64,000 bases of DNA, taken from contig NZ_JACJPL010000031.1 in the NCBI RefSeq assembly GCF_014696065.1, positions 186,001 to 250,000 of the forward strand, given 5' to 3'. The notes beneath the pieces were generated by a model. That model did not search any database. It was given only the letters and a program-made list of their open reading frames with translations, and was not told where the DNA came from. Shown here piece by piece: positions 15,455 through 53,892 of the stretch. The position numbers and the translations under genes were made by a program. Numbering within the stretch: the stretch's first letter is position 1; each line of letters starts with the position of its first letter. The stretch is from Leptolyngbya sp. FACHB-261. Its GTDB lineage: Bacteria; Cyanobacteriota; Cyanobacteriia; FACHB-261.

Positions 15455-16222
15455 AATGGGCAGAACGTTTTCTTCTAAGACTCCGTAGCGGGTGAATAGG
15501 CCGAATGATCAGCATAGTCCTCTAAATTTGGTGATTAGGCCAAATCTTTCCGCACAATACACGACTCAGGGTGATCAGGCCGAATCTTTCCGCATATTTT
15601 CAGATTCAGTATGCCCGCCTCTTGGCGCATTGGTTGGCTAGGGTTTAAGAGATGTATCGATGCTCGTTGACTGATTTGTTCTCAGGATGGTGGAGTGCTC
15701 TTTTGCCTGGGTTAAGTGGTTTTGGGGATTGAATCAGCGGCTGGACCGAGTAATTGGGAATTTGTCTGGGTTTCTACTGGTAAGTTTGTTTCGGTTTATT
15801 GCTTTGGCGGAACTGGAATCAACAATGGCGACCGCCGAAATAACTTCCGAGTACTCGGAAATAACATCCGCGACCGCCGAAATAGCTTTTGAGTACTCCG
15901 AAACAGCTTTTGCGAGCGCGGAAATAACATCCGCGACTGTCGAAATAGCTTTTGAGTACTCGGAAATAACATCGGCGGTCGCCGAAATAGCTTTTGAGTA
16001 CTCGGAAATAACATTGGAGTACTCGGAAGTAGCTTTTGAGTACTCGGAAATAACATCGGCGACTGCCGAAATAGCTTTTGAGTACTCCGAAGTAATAAAT
16101 ACCTAGGCCGATGCTTGGGGTGTGGACGAGCAGATCAACGAAACTTACACAGTTGCACCAGCAACACCTGCTTGAATTTAGCAGACAAGCTCTAGATTAC
16201 GTCCTCACCCATAACCTGAGTA
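15455..16222. repeat. Dispersed repeat, copy E (largest)
   Basis: The head differs from other copies and holds two or three short repeats of the type gtgattaggccgaatctttc (about 15495-15600). Next comes the IS5-like transposase tail (about 15687-15825), then thirteen 21-bp units, then the conserved tail 'aatacctaggccgatgcttg' to 'acctgagta', which abuts the GCCTAAC of attC 16223. The IS5-like part reads MVECSFAWVKWFWGLNQRLD and on to FRFIALAEL; VExSFAW-K-F--L is the C-terminal pattern of IS5-family transposases. No complete transposase exists in the window. A second GGCTAAC core word is just left of the copy at about 15447. Confidence 0.8.
15828..16100 (+). repeat. 21-bp tandem array, 13 units, no indels
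   Basis: Exactly thirteen 21-base units occupy 273 bases. Each unit is an 8-base near-palindrome (GAGTACTC, GCGACCGC, GCGGTCGC or variants) followed by a 13-base part that is either (c/g)gaaataacatcc or (c/g)gaaatagctttt. Because 21 is a multiple of three, both strands stay open: the plus strand would encode heptapeptides such as EYSEITS and ATAEIAF, the minus strand FPSTQKL-like peptides. I consider translation unlikely to be the point. Shorter versions of the same array occur in copies C, D, F and G. Confidence 0.92.
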
Positions 16223-20853: not shown

Positions 20854-21512
20854 ACGGCGTTAGGCTTTGCTTTTTTAGCTAAAATTCGAATAAAAGCCGT
20901 GAACAAAAACTGCATTCTATCGATTACCTTACTAACAAACAGTTGTATACATTTAGAAAGGGTTTTTCTTGCAGCCATATCAATAACTTAGGCTGCCTAA
21001 TTTGTCGTTAGGCAGAATTTTTCAATATATCCATCCCAAACAGGTGGATAGGAAGACAGCTTCAGAGGCTTTCCGTAACAAGTGGTGTTTCAATGAAACG
21101 TGACACTTCAAGATTGAGGCATTTCTCACTCGTCTACTGGTGGAATTTCACAAACTTGCGTGATGTTAAATCAATCTCCAGTTGATGAGCGGAATGTAGT
21201 GACTATCAGGTACAGGAATTCCCTGCTGTTCTTCCAGGTGAAAGGCTCCGGGAACGGTGCTCTTAATCACCTGATACACAAATCTCGTTTCAGGTTTTAT
21301 CCTGAGCGGAGATGTCCATTCAGCATAGCCGTCGTTTTACTAACTGGGTAGGAAGAAAATCAGCGAGTTGAAACAGGTCTACTGATTGTGTTTTAGTGCT
21401 CACATTGCTCAGTTAGCTGCAACACACAGATCTTTTTTGCGCTACCTACTTGACTCCACCAGGGAGACCCTGCTAATTTCCACACAGGCAACTGGACCCC
21501 TAGGCGTCCCCC
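20854..21512. other. Intergenic with GTTAGGC words, no gene
   Basis: Two GTTAGGC core words occur, at 20859-20865 and about 21003-21009, the latter within GCCTAATTTGTCGTTAGGC. Neither has a convincing attC partner. After the second, 'aggtggataggaagacagc' and 'ctttccgtaac' look like a very degenerate repeat head. No open frame here is credible. This is the right-hand limit of the attC-bearing region, where an integrase gene would be expected for a minus-strand array; none is present. Confidence 0.5.
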
Positions 21513-21572
21513 AGGGTCTTAACCAAACTCTGGGGAACTAACCGCCGGGTTGTCTTCTGTACAACCTGGCGG
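21513..21572. other. Hairpin cluster upstream of the 21658 gene
   Basis: Two stem-loops lie in tandem. The first is CCCCAGGGT ... ACTCTGGGG (about 21513-21537). The second is CCGCCGGGTTGT (21542-21553) and ACAACCTGGCGG (21561-21572) with a seven-base loop. Both are flanked by CTAAC or CTAGG words. A comparable cluster occurs at 53351-53456, also upstream of a winged-helix gene. They could be part of a structured leader or a small RNA. Confidence 0.6.
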
Positions 21573-21657
21573 CTAGGGGGCAGTTTATCACCTACCTTTC
21601 TCGACCCTGAATAGGGGTCAAAGGCTCTATTGCCCTCAAATTTTTGGAGTTCTTCCT

Positions 21658-22038
21658 ATGCACCTCACCCAGGTGTTGCAGCCGCAGCTTTGCATTCCTT
21701 TGTCTCAAGTTGCCCGTTTTTTAGGCATTCCCGAATCGCTCATTTGCCGCATGGAGCATTGGCTGCATGTGCTGTTCGTCCATCGCGCTGACCGAGGTGG
21801 ACAATTCCTCAGCTATCGCAAGTTCAACCAATGGCTTTCCGCCTGTGCCCTCACCATCCAAGCCTGCAACGACCTGCATCTGCTCGACTGGATTGGCGGA
21901 GTGATCAAAACCGAAATCCAGCGCTACTCCTACCCCGACGATGTGCTGAGCTATTGGCGGCACCTATGGCGACAGCGGCATACCCAACTGCGCAACTGTC
22001 AAAGCACTACTCTTCAAGCCCTGCCGAGACAAGCCTAA
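21658..22038 (+). CDS. Small protein with a putative helix-turn-helix
   Basis: A 126-residue protein starting at ATG 21658 behind TTTGGAG. Residues 14-35 (PLSQVARFLGIPESLICRME) have the shape of a helix-turn-helix. The middle is rich in His and Trp (HWLHVLFVHRADRGG, RKFNQWL) and the C-terminal half is helical (YWRHLWRQRHTQLRNC). I recognise no family. It stands between a hairpin cluster (21513-21572) and a 21-bp tandem array (22056-22331), and reads toward the winged-helix gene at 22354. It may be a DNA-binding partner of that module; this is inference. Confidence 0.6.
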   Translation: MHLTQVLQPQLCIPLSQVARFLGIPESLICRMEHWLHVLFVHRADRGGQFLSYRKFNQWLSACALTIQACNDLHLLDWIGGVIKTEIQRYSYPDDVLSYWRHLWRQRHTQLRNCQSTTLQALPRQA

Positions 22039-22055
22039 TTACATTACCCCCAAAG

Positions 22056-22331
22056 CACCGGTGTCGCAGCTCCGAACACCGACGTTGCAACTCAAAGCAT
22101 CGATGCCGCAGCTCAAAGCATCAATGCCGGAGGTATAGGGCACCGACGCCAGAGTTCAAAGCATCGACGTCGCAGTTCAGAACACCGATGCCGCAGGTAT
22201 AGAGCAGCAAACTCGCAGTTCAGAGCACCGACGCCGGAGGTGTACAGCACCGAGGTTGCAGTTCAGAACACCGATGTCGGAGTTCAAAGCACCGAGCTTG
22301 CAGTTCAGAACACCAAACTTGCAGTTCCAAG
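22056..22331 (+). repeat. 21-bp tandem array, 13 units
   Basis: Thirteen units can be aligned. Ten are exactly 21 bases, of the type caccgatgtcggagttcaaa and caccgagcttgcagttcaga. Three (starting 22119, 22183 and 22226) are 22 bases and carry a different end (ggtatagg, ggtataga, ggtgtaca). The total is 276 bases, so the reading frame is restored by the end. The last units are in frame with the winged-helix gene (STEVAVQ, NTDVGVQ, STELAVQ), so an N-terminally extended product is conceivable. Sequence is unrelated to the array at 15828 although the period is the same. Confidence 0.9.
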
Positions 22332-22353
22332 GACCAATCCCAAGACCCTAACT

Positions 22354-22665
22354 ATGAGCACCAACCTTCGCCTCGCCTTGTGGGACCACATCACCCGCTG
22401 CCTCAACCTGGCCGCCCCACTCAAACTGATCCTGCTGACCATCGCCAACTACCTCGAACCCAACAGCCCCCACTCCCGTGTCACCCTCGCCCTACTCAGC
22501 CGCGACAGCAACCTCCAACCCCAAGACCTCCAGACCTTACTGCCAGGACTCGAAGCCCGCGACCTGATCCGCAAAGTCACCGTCCACCCCGAAGGCGGCG
22601 GCCCCACCATCGCCCTCTACAGCCTCTCCCCCAACCTGCTACGAACCGTACAGAATCGCAATTGA
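22354..22665 (+). CDS. Small winged-helix protein beside 21-bp array
   Basis: A 103-residue protein, predicted to be a single winged-helix domain: helix 1 NLRLALWDHITRCL, helix 2 APLKLILLTIANYLE, a helix-turn-helix at RVTLALLSRDSNLQPQDLQT, helix LLPGLEARDLIRK and a wing VTVHPEGGGPTIALYSLSP. It is paralogous to the protein at 53551-53892; both share LxLWxxIxR, the IxxxIAN motif, LLxxLEA and the LYxLS near the end. Start ATG 22354 has no strong ribosome binding site, and the open frame continues upstream through the last repeats, so the true start may be earlier. Its position right after the array suggests that it binds the repeats; this is inference. Confidence 0.7.
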   Translation: MSTNLRLALWDHITRCLNLAAPLKLILLTIANYLEPNSPHSRVTLALLSRDSNLQPQDLQTLLPGLEARDLIRKVTVHPEGGGPTIALYSLSPNLLRTVQNRN

Positions 22666-42575: not shown

Positions 42576-43286
42576 CTAGCCTGCTTGTACAGGTTGTGGT
42601 TGGGTTGATGATGAGGTTGCGACCTTAGGATCTGGGGTGACAGGGGTACGGCTGGTGAGGCCGCGAAATAGATCGCGGTCCTGAGGACGGTCGCGGTAGG
42701 CAGCACGAGCGGCGGCGTTGAGATGGGTTAGGCTCTCGTAGACCTTTTGGATAGCGTCGTGGCGTCGAGAGGTTGCTACACGGCGGTTGAGTTTGGCTTG
42801 CTCTTGCTTGCGGTTTAGCTCATCAAGGCGGTTGCGCAAAGTTTGTCCCTGGTCGGCATAGTCTTTGGGCTGACCGATATTGCTCAAGGTAGTCGCGTAA
42901 GTTTGGGCAAGATCAATCAGGCTGGGCAGGACAAACAGCATCTTGGACTCGTTGCTGTGGGAAGTACGGAAGGAGTTGTGGGGAAAAGGGTTGTGGGCAG
43001 TGTTGCCGAAGGCGAGTTTGCAGCGGTCGCGTAGCATGCTGCCCCAAGCAACAGCGTCCTTCAGGACGCTATCTTTGCTGGCCGTGAGTTGTTTCTGGAT
43101 GCTCAGCAGAGTTGCATCTACGGGCAGGGCTGAATAGGCTGCAATCTGGCTCTGGAATTGGTCAAGCTTGTCTGCGGTAACGCCCATAACGCTGAGATCA
43201 TCCAAACGTTTGCGGGCGAGATCGAGCTTGTTTTTAGCATCTTCAAGGATGACTTCTTCGGGCGCACTGGGTGGTCTGCGTTTCAT
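42576..43286 (-). CDS. Helical protein beside 21-bp array, unknown
   Basis: A 236-residue, mostly helical, charged protein. Coiled-coil-like segments lie at about residues 12-60 (LEDAKNKLDLARKRLDDLSV) and 145-185 (LRNRLDELNRKQEQAKLNRR). The middle holds SKDSVLKDAVAWGSMLRDRC. The C-terminus is Pro/Thr/Ser-rich. I recognise no family. Its start is about 60 bases from the 21-bp array at 43346-43545, the same arrangement as the gene at 52496 with its array. Both may be parts of one type of locus. Confidence 0.65.
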   Translation of the reverse strand: MKRRPPSAPEEVILEDAKNKLDLARKRLDDLSVMGVTADKLDQFQSQIAAYSALPVDATLLSIQKQLTASKDSVLKDAVAWGSMLRDRCKLAFGNTAHNPFPHNSFRTSHSNESKMLFVLPSLIDLAQTYATTLSNIGQPKDYADQGQTLRNRLDELNRKQEQAKLNRRVATSRRHDAIQKVYESLTHLNAAARAAYRDRPQDRDLFRGLTSRTPVTPDPKVATSSSTQPQPVQAG

Positions 43287-43345: not shown

Positions 43346-43545
43346 CCAAGTTGGGAGAAAGATTCTAAACTTGGGGCGCTTAAACCAAAGCCTGGGGAGA
43401 AGTTACCTAGGTCTGGAGAGCTTTAGTCAAACTTTGACGAGAACCCTTCCAAGCTTGAGGAGCTTTGTCTAAAGTCTGGGGAGATTGATCCAAAGTCTGG
43501 AGAGCTTTAGCCGAAACTTGGGGAGATCAATTCCAAGCTTGGTTA
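43346..43545. repeat. 21-bp tandem array, about 10 units
   Basis: Units share the core (a/c)(c/t)tTGG(G/A)GAG. The last T of this core falls at 43372, 43393, 43414, 43435, 43456, 43477, 43498, 43519 and 43540, exactly 21 bases apart; a further unit is at 43352. Typical units are aagtctggggagattgatcc and aagtctggagagctttagcc. Alternate units end in 'gctttag' or 'gatcaatt'. The array lies upstream of the minus-strand gene at 42576. No long frame stays open here, so coding is not the reason for the period. Confidence 0.88.
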
Positions 43546-43675
43546 ACAACTGCCACAAGAATTTGAGAACAAGAGCAAGTTGCTGTTGCTCTAAAATGCA
43601 AAGTTCCCCCATGTCCCTAGGTTGGAAACAAGCAGGACAGGGTTAATCAGTCTTTAGATATTTGGGGGCAGGGAC

Positions 43676-52495: not shown

Positions 52496-52858
52496 TCAAG
52501 CTGTGACTGCTGCCTTTGCCTTACGGACTGGGCGTCTACGTTCGCCTTTGCGGACGCCGCCTGCCATTTCGTATTCCTCGCTGCTTTTGCCGTATTTGCT
52601 GGCAACACCGAGCAGCATGTGTTCGGATAGATCGCTCAGATCTTTCTCAGCTTGACTCAGTTTGCTGCGGGCAGCGTCAACAGCAGAGAGCATGGTATTG
52701 TAGGCTTCCAGGTAGTCGGAAACTTGATTCATAGAAGACCGATAAGCTTCCATTGTCAGCGAGTTGCCCAGGTCAAGGTTAGGGCTAATGGACTTTAGTG
52801 CTGCAATGCGGCGTTGGGCATGGTCGAGGGATTTGGAGCTACGTCTACGGCTGGTCAT
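52496..52858 (-). CDS. Cyanobacterial helical protein beside 21-bp array
   Basis: A 120-residue basic, helical protein: SKSLDHAQRRIAALKSISPN, LDLGNSLTMEAYRSSMNQV, then a coiled-coil-like helix (AARSKLSQAEKDLSDLSEHM) and YGKSSEEYEMAGGVRKGERR. I recall similar short proteins in many cyanobacteria with the LDLGNGL and EYEMAGG words; no function is known to me. The Arg/Lys-rich tail suggests nucleic-acid contact. The ATG at 52858 follows AGGGTGA. Its 5' side faces the 21-bp array at 53000-53188, like the gene at 42576. A hairpin lies beyond its stop at 52455. Confidence 0.75.
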   Translation of the reverse strand: MTSRRRSSKSLDHAQRRIAALKSISPNLDLGNSLTMEAYRSSMNQVSDYLEAYNTMLSAVDAARSKLSQAEKDLSDLSEHMLLGVASKYGKSSEEYEMAGGVRKGERRRPVRKAKAAVTA

Positions 52859-52999
52859 AGAAATCACCCTAGAAATAAAGGATAGGTCTAGAGTAAATAG
52901 TTGGCTGAGCACAAGCCTCGGGGTTATCTAGGAAAAAAGCGGACGAGAGAGTGGGAAGCTAGCAAATTGCTAGTAGATTTGCGGGTATTGTTGGGGCAA

Positions 53000-53188
53000 A
53001 ATGCTCAAGCGGAAAGCTTTAACGCTTCTCTGAAATCAAGAAACGCTTATGCGGAAAGCTGCAACACTCCTGTGAAATCGAGAAACACTTATGCAGAAAG
53101 CTGCAACACTCCTGTGAAATCGAGAAACACTTATGCGGAAAGCTGCAATGCTTCTGTGAAATCAACTAACACTTCAGCAAAGTCGGTC
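53000..53188 (+). repeat. 21-bp tandem array, 9 units, no indels
   Basis: Nine consecutive 21-base units in two alternating types: aacacttatgcggaaagctgc-like (without its last base in some) and aacactcctgtgaaatcgag. Units 4 and 6 are identical. In the plus frame they would encode alternating heptapeptides NTYAESC and NTPVKSR within a 108-codon frame that begins inside the 52496 gene's leader. I doubt that this frame is a gene. The array separates the helical-protein gene (52858) from the hairpin cluster and winged-helix gene (53551). Confidence 0.93.
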
Positions 53189-53350
53189 TGCAAACGCTCA
53201 GTATTTTTGCTAGACTCGCTTGCTTAGCGCAGATCAGTCTGCTAATCTGGGCTGCATCGCAACGACAGGAGTCTTTTGCCTATCGCCAATCACCGCTAAC
53301 CTGCTGCAAAAATTTAGCGCTACTCAGAAGCTGTAAGCGAACTTCTGGGT

Positions 53351-53456
53351 AGCTAACCCCCCAACTGTTCTATGGACAGTCAGGCGGCTAACGGGTGATT
53401 TTAACACCCTCACTAGCCACCCCGACTTGCTATGGCAAATCACCGGGGTGGCTAAC
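53351..53456. other. Hairpin cluster upstream of winged-helix gene
   Basis: Three stem-loops lie in series: CCCCCCAACTGTTC-tatg-GACAGTCAGGCGG (53357-53387), GGGTG-attttaa-CACCC (about 53393-53410), and CCACCCCGACTTGC ... GCAAATCACCGGGGTGG (53417-53451). TATGG loops and GCTAAC flanks recur. The set resembles the cluster at 21513-21572. These could be structured RNA, binding sites or a small repeat family. Confidence 0.65.
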
Positions 53457-53550
53457 ACTTTAGGCGGATCTCCGTAGGGGCAATGCATCTATTGCCTCTA
53501 CCCATGACCGCATTGTTCAAACTCATTCAGCCATTAGGAACAAACTCAAA

Positions 53551-53892
53551 ATGAATACCGCCCATCTATCACCCTCCCAAATTCGCCTCATGCTCTGGGC
53601 CTACATCAGCCGCGAAATTAAGCTACCTGCTGCCAGCAAAAGCATCTTGCAAGTTATCGCCAATCTCACCGACCCACGCAGTCTCAGAGCCCGCATTCCC
53701 ATCTCGCTAATCGTGGTTCATAGCGGCTTGAGCCAATCCGATATCAGCCGTTTATTGGTCAACCTCGAAGCCAATCAATGGGTCGAAAAGAGCCTGGTTC
53801 CTGCCGAAGCCCCCGGTCGTCCGCCAGCCACGCTCTACAACCTATCCGAAGGCTTGATTCGCCATGCCCTCTGCCTAAATCGCAAGCCGTAA
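53551..53892 (+). CDS. Small winged-helix protein, paralogue of 22354 gene
   Basis: A 113-residue winged-helix protein: SPSQIRLMLWAYISREIKL, SKSILQVIANLTD, the helix-turn-helix SLIVVHSGLSQSDISRLLVN, LEANQWVEKSLV and a wing PGRPPATLYNLSEGLIR. It shares with the 103-residue protein at 22354 the order LxLWxxIxR, IxxxIAN, LLxxLEA and LYxLS, about one-third identity by eye. It resembles MarR-like or replication-control winged helices. AGGA is 13 bases upstream of the ATG, a weak site. It lies next to a hairpin cluster and a 21-bp array, as the other does, and two bases from the end of ispD on the other strand. Confidence 0.75.
   Translation: MNTAHLSPSQIRLMLWAYISREIKLPAASKSILQVIANLTDPRSLRARIPISLIVVHSGLSQSDISRLLVNLEANQWVEKSLVPAEAPGRPPATLYNLSEGLIRHALCLNRKP

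Follow-up and report, generated by a model that had tools for sequence, protein, structure and literature searches.

The locus at 52 kb in the 64,000-nucleotide stretch of Leptolyngbya sp. FACHB-261 DNA analysed here (the window) raises the question of what a row of 21-bp tandem repeats does between two divergent genes and which protein might read it. The preliminary description saw there a single module of four parts within 1.4 kb, namely, a helical protein, a 21-bp array, a hairpin cluster, and a winged-helix gene. All four are present, as ORFs, an array detected by TRF, a stable predicted fold, and an ORF with weak winged-helix matches. Their recurrent pairing is also real, and stronger than could be known from the window. 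However, it consists of two pairs that meet at this locus: the helical gene (hel) with its array, which is found across phyla, and an RNA leader with a winged-helix gene and, usually, a further gene, HTH1, which is found in one lineage. A single array at 52 kb separates the two divergent units, hel on one side and the RNA leader with the winged-helix gene on the other.

52496–52858, minus strand: hel, helical gene, 120 aa (ATG at 52858), with a long predicted helix and a basic C-terminal tail, AGGVRKGERRRP
53009–53174, strand not applicable: 21-bp tandem array of family A, about 8 to 9 units (TRF)
53305–53420, plus strand: RNA leader with a three-way junction (model R1), the core of the hairpin cluster
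53414–53454, plus strand: long hairpin GCCACCCCG...CGGGGTGGC with the loop TATG, just 3' of the R1 core
53551–53892, plus strand: winged-helix-like gene, 113 aa; the genome has 43 counted copies and, in addition, decayed fragments

The array spans the interval approximately 150 to 316 bp before the hel ATG, and the RNA leader begins approximately 130 bp beyond it. TRF reports 4.0 copies of a 42-bp repeat (score, 234), which corresponds to about eight units of 21 bp, and the ninth unit previously counted is degenerate. This array has no 7-bp sub-period and is not palindromic, unlike the dyad-enriched arrays generally. The segment from 53300 to 53500 folds with a predicted energy of −82.3 kcal/mol (z = −5.65). 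Its hairpins are real, but there are at least five of them, and the CTATGG loop occurs in only two, not in three as initially thought.

Two more loci in the window contain parts of the same set.

21487–21604, plus strand: RNA leader, second copy in the window (22-kb locus)
21658–22038, plus strand: HTH1 gene, 126 aa, which opens the usual RNA-HTH1-winged-helix operon and is missing at 52 kb
22051–22335: 21-bp array between HTH1 and the winged-helix gene, with occasional 22-bp steps
22357–22665, plus strand: winged-helix-like gene, subfamily 2
42576–43286, minus strand: larger helical gene, 236 aa (43-kb locus)
43350–43546: 21-bp array upstream of the 43-kb helical gene

The combination of hairpins, array, and winged-helix paralogue at 22 kb had been recognized before, without the putative HTH gene that accompanies them. 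The pairing of a helical gene with an array at 43 kb likewise holds, although its product has no detectable sequence similarity to the 52-kb helical protein. A further array, at positions 15687 to 16106 of the window, lies within an open 139-aa frame (with TAEITSEYSEITSA repeats) and has ~570 bp in common with C26:180660 and C26:214154, where the frame is likewise open in the same register; this array family could be coding.

Period-21 arrays form a distinct class in this genome. A survey of 2.39 Mb, about one third of the genome, found 24 of them above the threshold, compared with 0 to 3 for any other period that is not a multiple of three. A typical array beside hel comprises ~10 copies of a 21-letter unit whose length is constant and whose sequence is different at nearly every locus. 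Within the surveyed third, about one array in two has neither hel nor a member of the winged-helix family nearby. At C31:425830-426277, a very long array of ~21 units, with the palindromic CATAGA..TCTATG, precedes an ORF of 156 aa that looks helical and belongs to a different family (LPKVGDKSRIF).

Several familiar explanations do not fit these arrays. The units are contiguous and imperfect and have no spacers, which sets them apart from CRISPR arrays. Although 21 is a multiple of three, the hel-associated arrays are probably non-coding: a gene for heptad (7-residue) repeats was rejected because these arrays contain 44 open frames, compared with 48.1 expected from column-permuted arrays, and because of the 22-bp steps in the 22-kb array. 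A single binding motif common to all arrays was also rejected, as the signal is weak (5.16 bits, versus 4.2 to 4.6 bits in column-permuted arrays) and comes partly from related loci. The argument that the array at L160 and L215 is conserved beyond neutral drift was dropped, as these two loci share exact upstream DNA.

The strongest regularity is the association with hel. An array is present in 28 of the 58 upstream kilobases of hel homologues from Cyanobacteria, Chloroflexi, and Bacteroidota, compared with 1.05% of 1-kb segments (n = 2390) drawn at random from this genome, at the same score. With the loci taken as independent and the background drawn from this genome only, the binomial P is ~1e-39, or ~1e-34 after removal of near-duplicates. 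The near end of the array usually lies ~150 to 260 bp from the hel ATG. Its period is nearly always 21, also in the Chloroflexi and Bacteroidota metagenome-assembled genomes (MAGs). Approximately half of the hel genes lack an array, most of the Nostoc copies among them. The copies L201, L218, and L204, from three related Nostocales, show a period of 31 instead of 21, with an apparent unit of ~62 bp, which is close to a multiple of the helical repeat.

The hel gene has 12 paralogues in this genome and is multicopy in 14 of 292 cyanobacterial genomes, this one included. Outside Cyanobacteria, its relatives are found in one Chloroflexi MAG and three Bacteroidota MAGs, assignments that are open to mis-binning. 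An AlphaFold2 model of the protein with 21 homologues consists of a 54-residue helix and a shorter helix (pLDDT, 85). No credible family was found for it in Pfam, NCBIfam, PHROGs, or PADLOC, a fold search against the PDB gave no match at an E value of ≤0.001, and the protein contains no recognized DNA-binding fold. One duplicated locus (C31:389985 and C31:647262; 83% identity over 769 bp) has an array common to both copies, with hel kept in one and none seen at the other.

Judging from sequence, a tentative but favored interpretation is that each array is a row of regulatory sites peculiar to its locus, which would control the neighboring promoters and would likeliest be read by the helical protein. 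The candidate sites, exactly two helical turns apart, would line up along one side of the double helix ahead of a promoter. The helical protein, the sole partner conserved across phyla, would be the putative reader and would regulate its own gene, each paralogue having its own unit sequence. Where the same array recurs ~200 bp before the structured RNA leader, the helical protein would control the winged-helix operon as well. That a protein binds the DNA, which protein this is, and the sign of the regulation are inferred, with modest confidence. The autoregulatory role, one of the options raised initially, is thus the favored one. The parts themselves and the covarying RNA are shown directly, as are the observations that support the operator interpretation: a link of gene and array across phyla, a period that holds while the units diverge, narrow limits on spacing, and array families common to several loci. 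Invariant cores, the enrichment of dyad symmetry, and the lack of an excess of open frames also speak for it.

A point against the helical protein as the reader is that its basic tail, the most conserved part, does not vary as a specificity determinant should, and the units vary freely meanwhile. Other points against this interpretation are the lack of a recognized DNA-binding fold, the hel genes that have no array, the arrays near neither gene family, the non-palindromic array at 52 kb, and the restriction of one hel unit to its own locus in another genome. Unit similarity is higher (cosine, 0.58) where the hel proteins are at least 60% identical than below that level, where it falls to a background of ~0.31; this co-divergence would be predicted equally by linked descent.

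If period alone mattered, the arrays might instead be DNA shape elements, in which a repeat every two turns (2 × 10.5 bp) sums any bend. Such a role agrees with a period of 21 in freely varying sequence and with more predicted curvature than in fully shuffled DNA (mean z, 2.16). However, the curvature is no greater than in column-permuted arrays (z, 0.21), so the units are not tuned for bending, and unit-specific curvature was rejected. Cores that are invariant across loci also favor sequence recognition, which makes the shape hypothesis quite improbable.

Many units show dyad symmetry, with a mean z of 0.88 (standard error, 0.19) for hel arrays and 1.57 (standard error, 0.20) for arrays of this genome. 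This symmetry, together with the fact that operon-internal arrays would be part of the mRNA, could be taken to indicate that the array is transcribed and acts as a repeated RNA, such as a sponge, a guide, or a hairpin array. However, the excess of paired changes within dyads is small (361 versus 339.5), there is no excess of G-U pairs, and perfect dyads such as CTGGTnACCAG leave no loop in the RNA. Owing to such slight covariation, a hairpin array was rejected, and an RNA role of any of these kinds appears very improbable.

The array families link the two units. Clustering of the repeat units yields five families that each join a hel locus to RNA-winged-helix loci.

Family A: the 52-kb locus and L016
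Family B: hel locus L047; L013 and L019
Family D: hel locus L056; L030 and L043
Family E: hel locus L053; L018 and L024
Family H: hel locus L054; L022

For families B, D, E, and H, hel and winged-helix loci are homologous in the array only, up to its edges or close to them. In family H, the units follow the same order at both loci, so this array was probably copied as a cassette. In family A, the homology extends beyond the array into the RNA leader; thus, the 52-kb array descends with the RNA-winged-helix locus and is also in the hel position. Within families, the cores are invariant across loci and the other columns drift, most clearly for TGGTnnCCA within CTGGTnACCAG, found in 17 of the 17 units of family H. 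The sampling is uneven, with winged-helix loci taken genome-wide and other arrays from one third of the genome, and no preference of hel arrays for winged-helix loci is claimed. In one other genome, one hel unit occurs at its own locus only, so copies in trans are not general.

Shared families also suit the main rival explanation, in which the arrays would be satellite cassettes, either selfish or spreading passively, moved by gene conversion or a mobile mechanism and collecting in permissive upstream regions, with their neighbors as bystanders. It accounts for array-only homology between unrelated loci and the common unit order in family H, for nearly identical HTH1-winged-helix operons of subfamily 2 that carry unrelated units or no array, and for the many arrays near other genes. 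It would not lead one to expect a preference for one gene family in three phyla, a fixed period of 21, a constrained distance to hel and to the RNA, or cores that are invariant across loci, and we consider it rather unlikely.

The winged-helix-like protein itself has only weak database matches, to HTH_IclR (E value, 3e-4; 20.9 bits versus a cutoff of 22), HTH_36, MreA, and one solved winged-helix chain. The family has 43 copies examined in this genome (~45 matches with fragments) and is absent from 385 other cyanobacterial genomes (found in 1 of 386 searched). Its gene is usually accompanied by HTH1, the second putative HTH gene. Of 291 other cyanobacterial genomes, 12 have one or two relatives of HTH1 each, in no case with a winged-helix neighbor. 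At L180 to L183, in some other cyanobacteria, the HTH1 relative stands as a single gene, with an XRE-like gene nearby and also a 161-aa ORF, presumably an allophycocyanin-type subunit.

An array is found within 1.4 kb upstream of 16 of the 43 winged-helix genes and downstream of none. At the strict score, the other 27 have no array within 1.4 kb upstream, so that one of the two grounds named for refuting the proposed module, that homologues are mostly not beside arrays, applies. Where arrays lie upstream of the leader, they end 144 to 225 bp before the RNA start in 11 of 12 copies. This one-sided placement and the five joint array families make a shared circuit likely.

That the winged-helix protein binds the array, as first proposed, is nevertheless unsupported as a general rule. 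The one-sided placement would agree with binding by this protein (or HTH1), as would the array located between HTH1 and the winged-helix gene in most operons of subfamily 2. However, most operons of subfamily 1 have no array, nearly identical operons carry unrelated units, and several of the genomes that lack the winged-helix family have hel arrays. The winged-helix protein is therefore unlikely to be the general array reader, as arrays accompany hel in genomes without it and also in Chloroflexi and Bacteroidota. Its use of arrays in this lineage may still occur, but recognition by either protein is an unlikely explanation of the arrays.

The hairpin cluster is a copy of an undescribed structured RNA leader with strong covariation. 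It consists of an outer stem, the arm P2, a linker (CTAAC or CTGAC), the arm P3, the element GGCTA..GGG, and TTTAACAC, and is located upstream of HTH1 or, where HTH1 is missing, as at 52 kb, of the winged-helix gene. A model built from 15 subfamily-2 copies matches the 52-kb leader at 29.7 bits, as well as most other loci. In 46 sense copies, 86.8% of the pair cells are canonical, compared with 73.5% after shuffling of partners and at most 55.7% after sliding, and 27 of the 34 pairs show changes on both sides; the alignment was fitted to the model, which favors the proposed structure. The structure is convincing because the helix sequences differ between the gene families. The long hairpin 3' of the R1 core is present in many subfamily-1 copies.

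The leader is present in ~50 copies here; a search of 291 other cyanobacterial genomes under stricter filters found none. Rfam 15 gave no match for the window and nothing credible for either leader at relaxed E values. The leader precedes at least four kinds of small genes, including two ORF families of 73 and 72 aa.

C31:631603, C31:928723, C26:323146: leader copies before the 73-aa ORFs (MTQSSAPTFSDSDL...)
C26:15584, C26:60231, C26:538850: leader copies before the 72-aa ORFs (MWTTFGTLAKGERFYFAGH...)

Among known systems, the closest parallels are the iterons of plasmid replicons and direct-repeat operators, where rows of direct repeats approximately two helical turns apart lie beside the gene of the presumed binder. 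By analogy, the array may work in a similar way, given the period of 21 and its position upstream of nearly half of the hel genes. In contrast to iterons, these arrays lie on the chromosome, with many of them in each genome, nearly every locus has a unit of its own, the 52-kb array has no replication gene beside it, and its partner has no recognized DNA-binding fold. A plasmid partition or replication role, suggested initially, is disfavored, because the loci are chromosomal, apart from one plasmid record (a Kovacikia megaplasmid), and gave no phage or viral match; at 52 kb, no rep or par gene is found beside the locus.

The STRR sequences of cyanobacteria are likewise short intergenic tandem repeats, but they are heptamers of a few genome-wide sequences, whereas the repeats described here are 21 bp long, without the 7-bp sub-period at the 52-kb array, and also occur outside cyanobacteria. 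The tandem repeats of archaeal Borg elements are fast-evolving and locus-specific, and the intergenic ones have been proposed to be regulatory RNAs (PMC9879509). In being fast-evolving and unlike between loci, the arrays resemble these repeats. However, Borg repeats are perfect and varied in unit length, with 14 to 38% of the intergenic unit lengths divisible by three and no tie to one gene family (PMC9879509), whereas the arrays have a fixed period of 21, imperfect units, and a recurring partner gene. As regards the leader, orphan riboswitch-type leaders, such as the candidates surveyed in PMC2864571 and PMC7266159, are similar in being covarying structured RNAs that precede small genes and are repeated in a genome; the leader at 52 kb differs in having no Rfam match, a distribution in one lineage, and small ORFs of no assigned function. 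A search of the open literature, which did not extend to subscription papers, found no description of the arrays or the leader.

Taken together, the arrays might represent a cross-phylum class in which a small helical protein is combined with an array whose period is conserved and whose sequence is re-invented at nearly every locus. Such a class would provide many independent channels per genome, and cassettes copied to new promoters would wire new targets, in this case an operon in many copies with a new three-way-junction RNA at its head. This generalization is possible, if speculative. A fixed period with a free sequence, kept by one gene family across phyla, is hard to explain by known operators, iterons, CRISPRs, or satellites. 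The RNA leader, which is multicopy, covarying, and limited to a single lineage, lends itself to study as an orphan RNA. If the helical protein does read its private array, these loci would be natural orthogonal protein-DNA pairs, and the copying of an array would amount to a new regulatory link.
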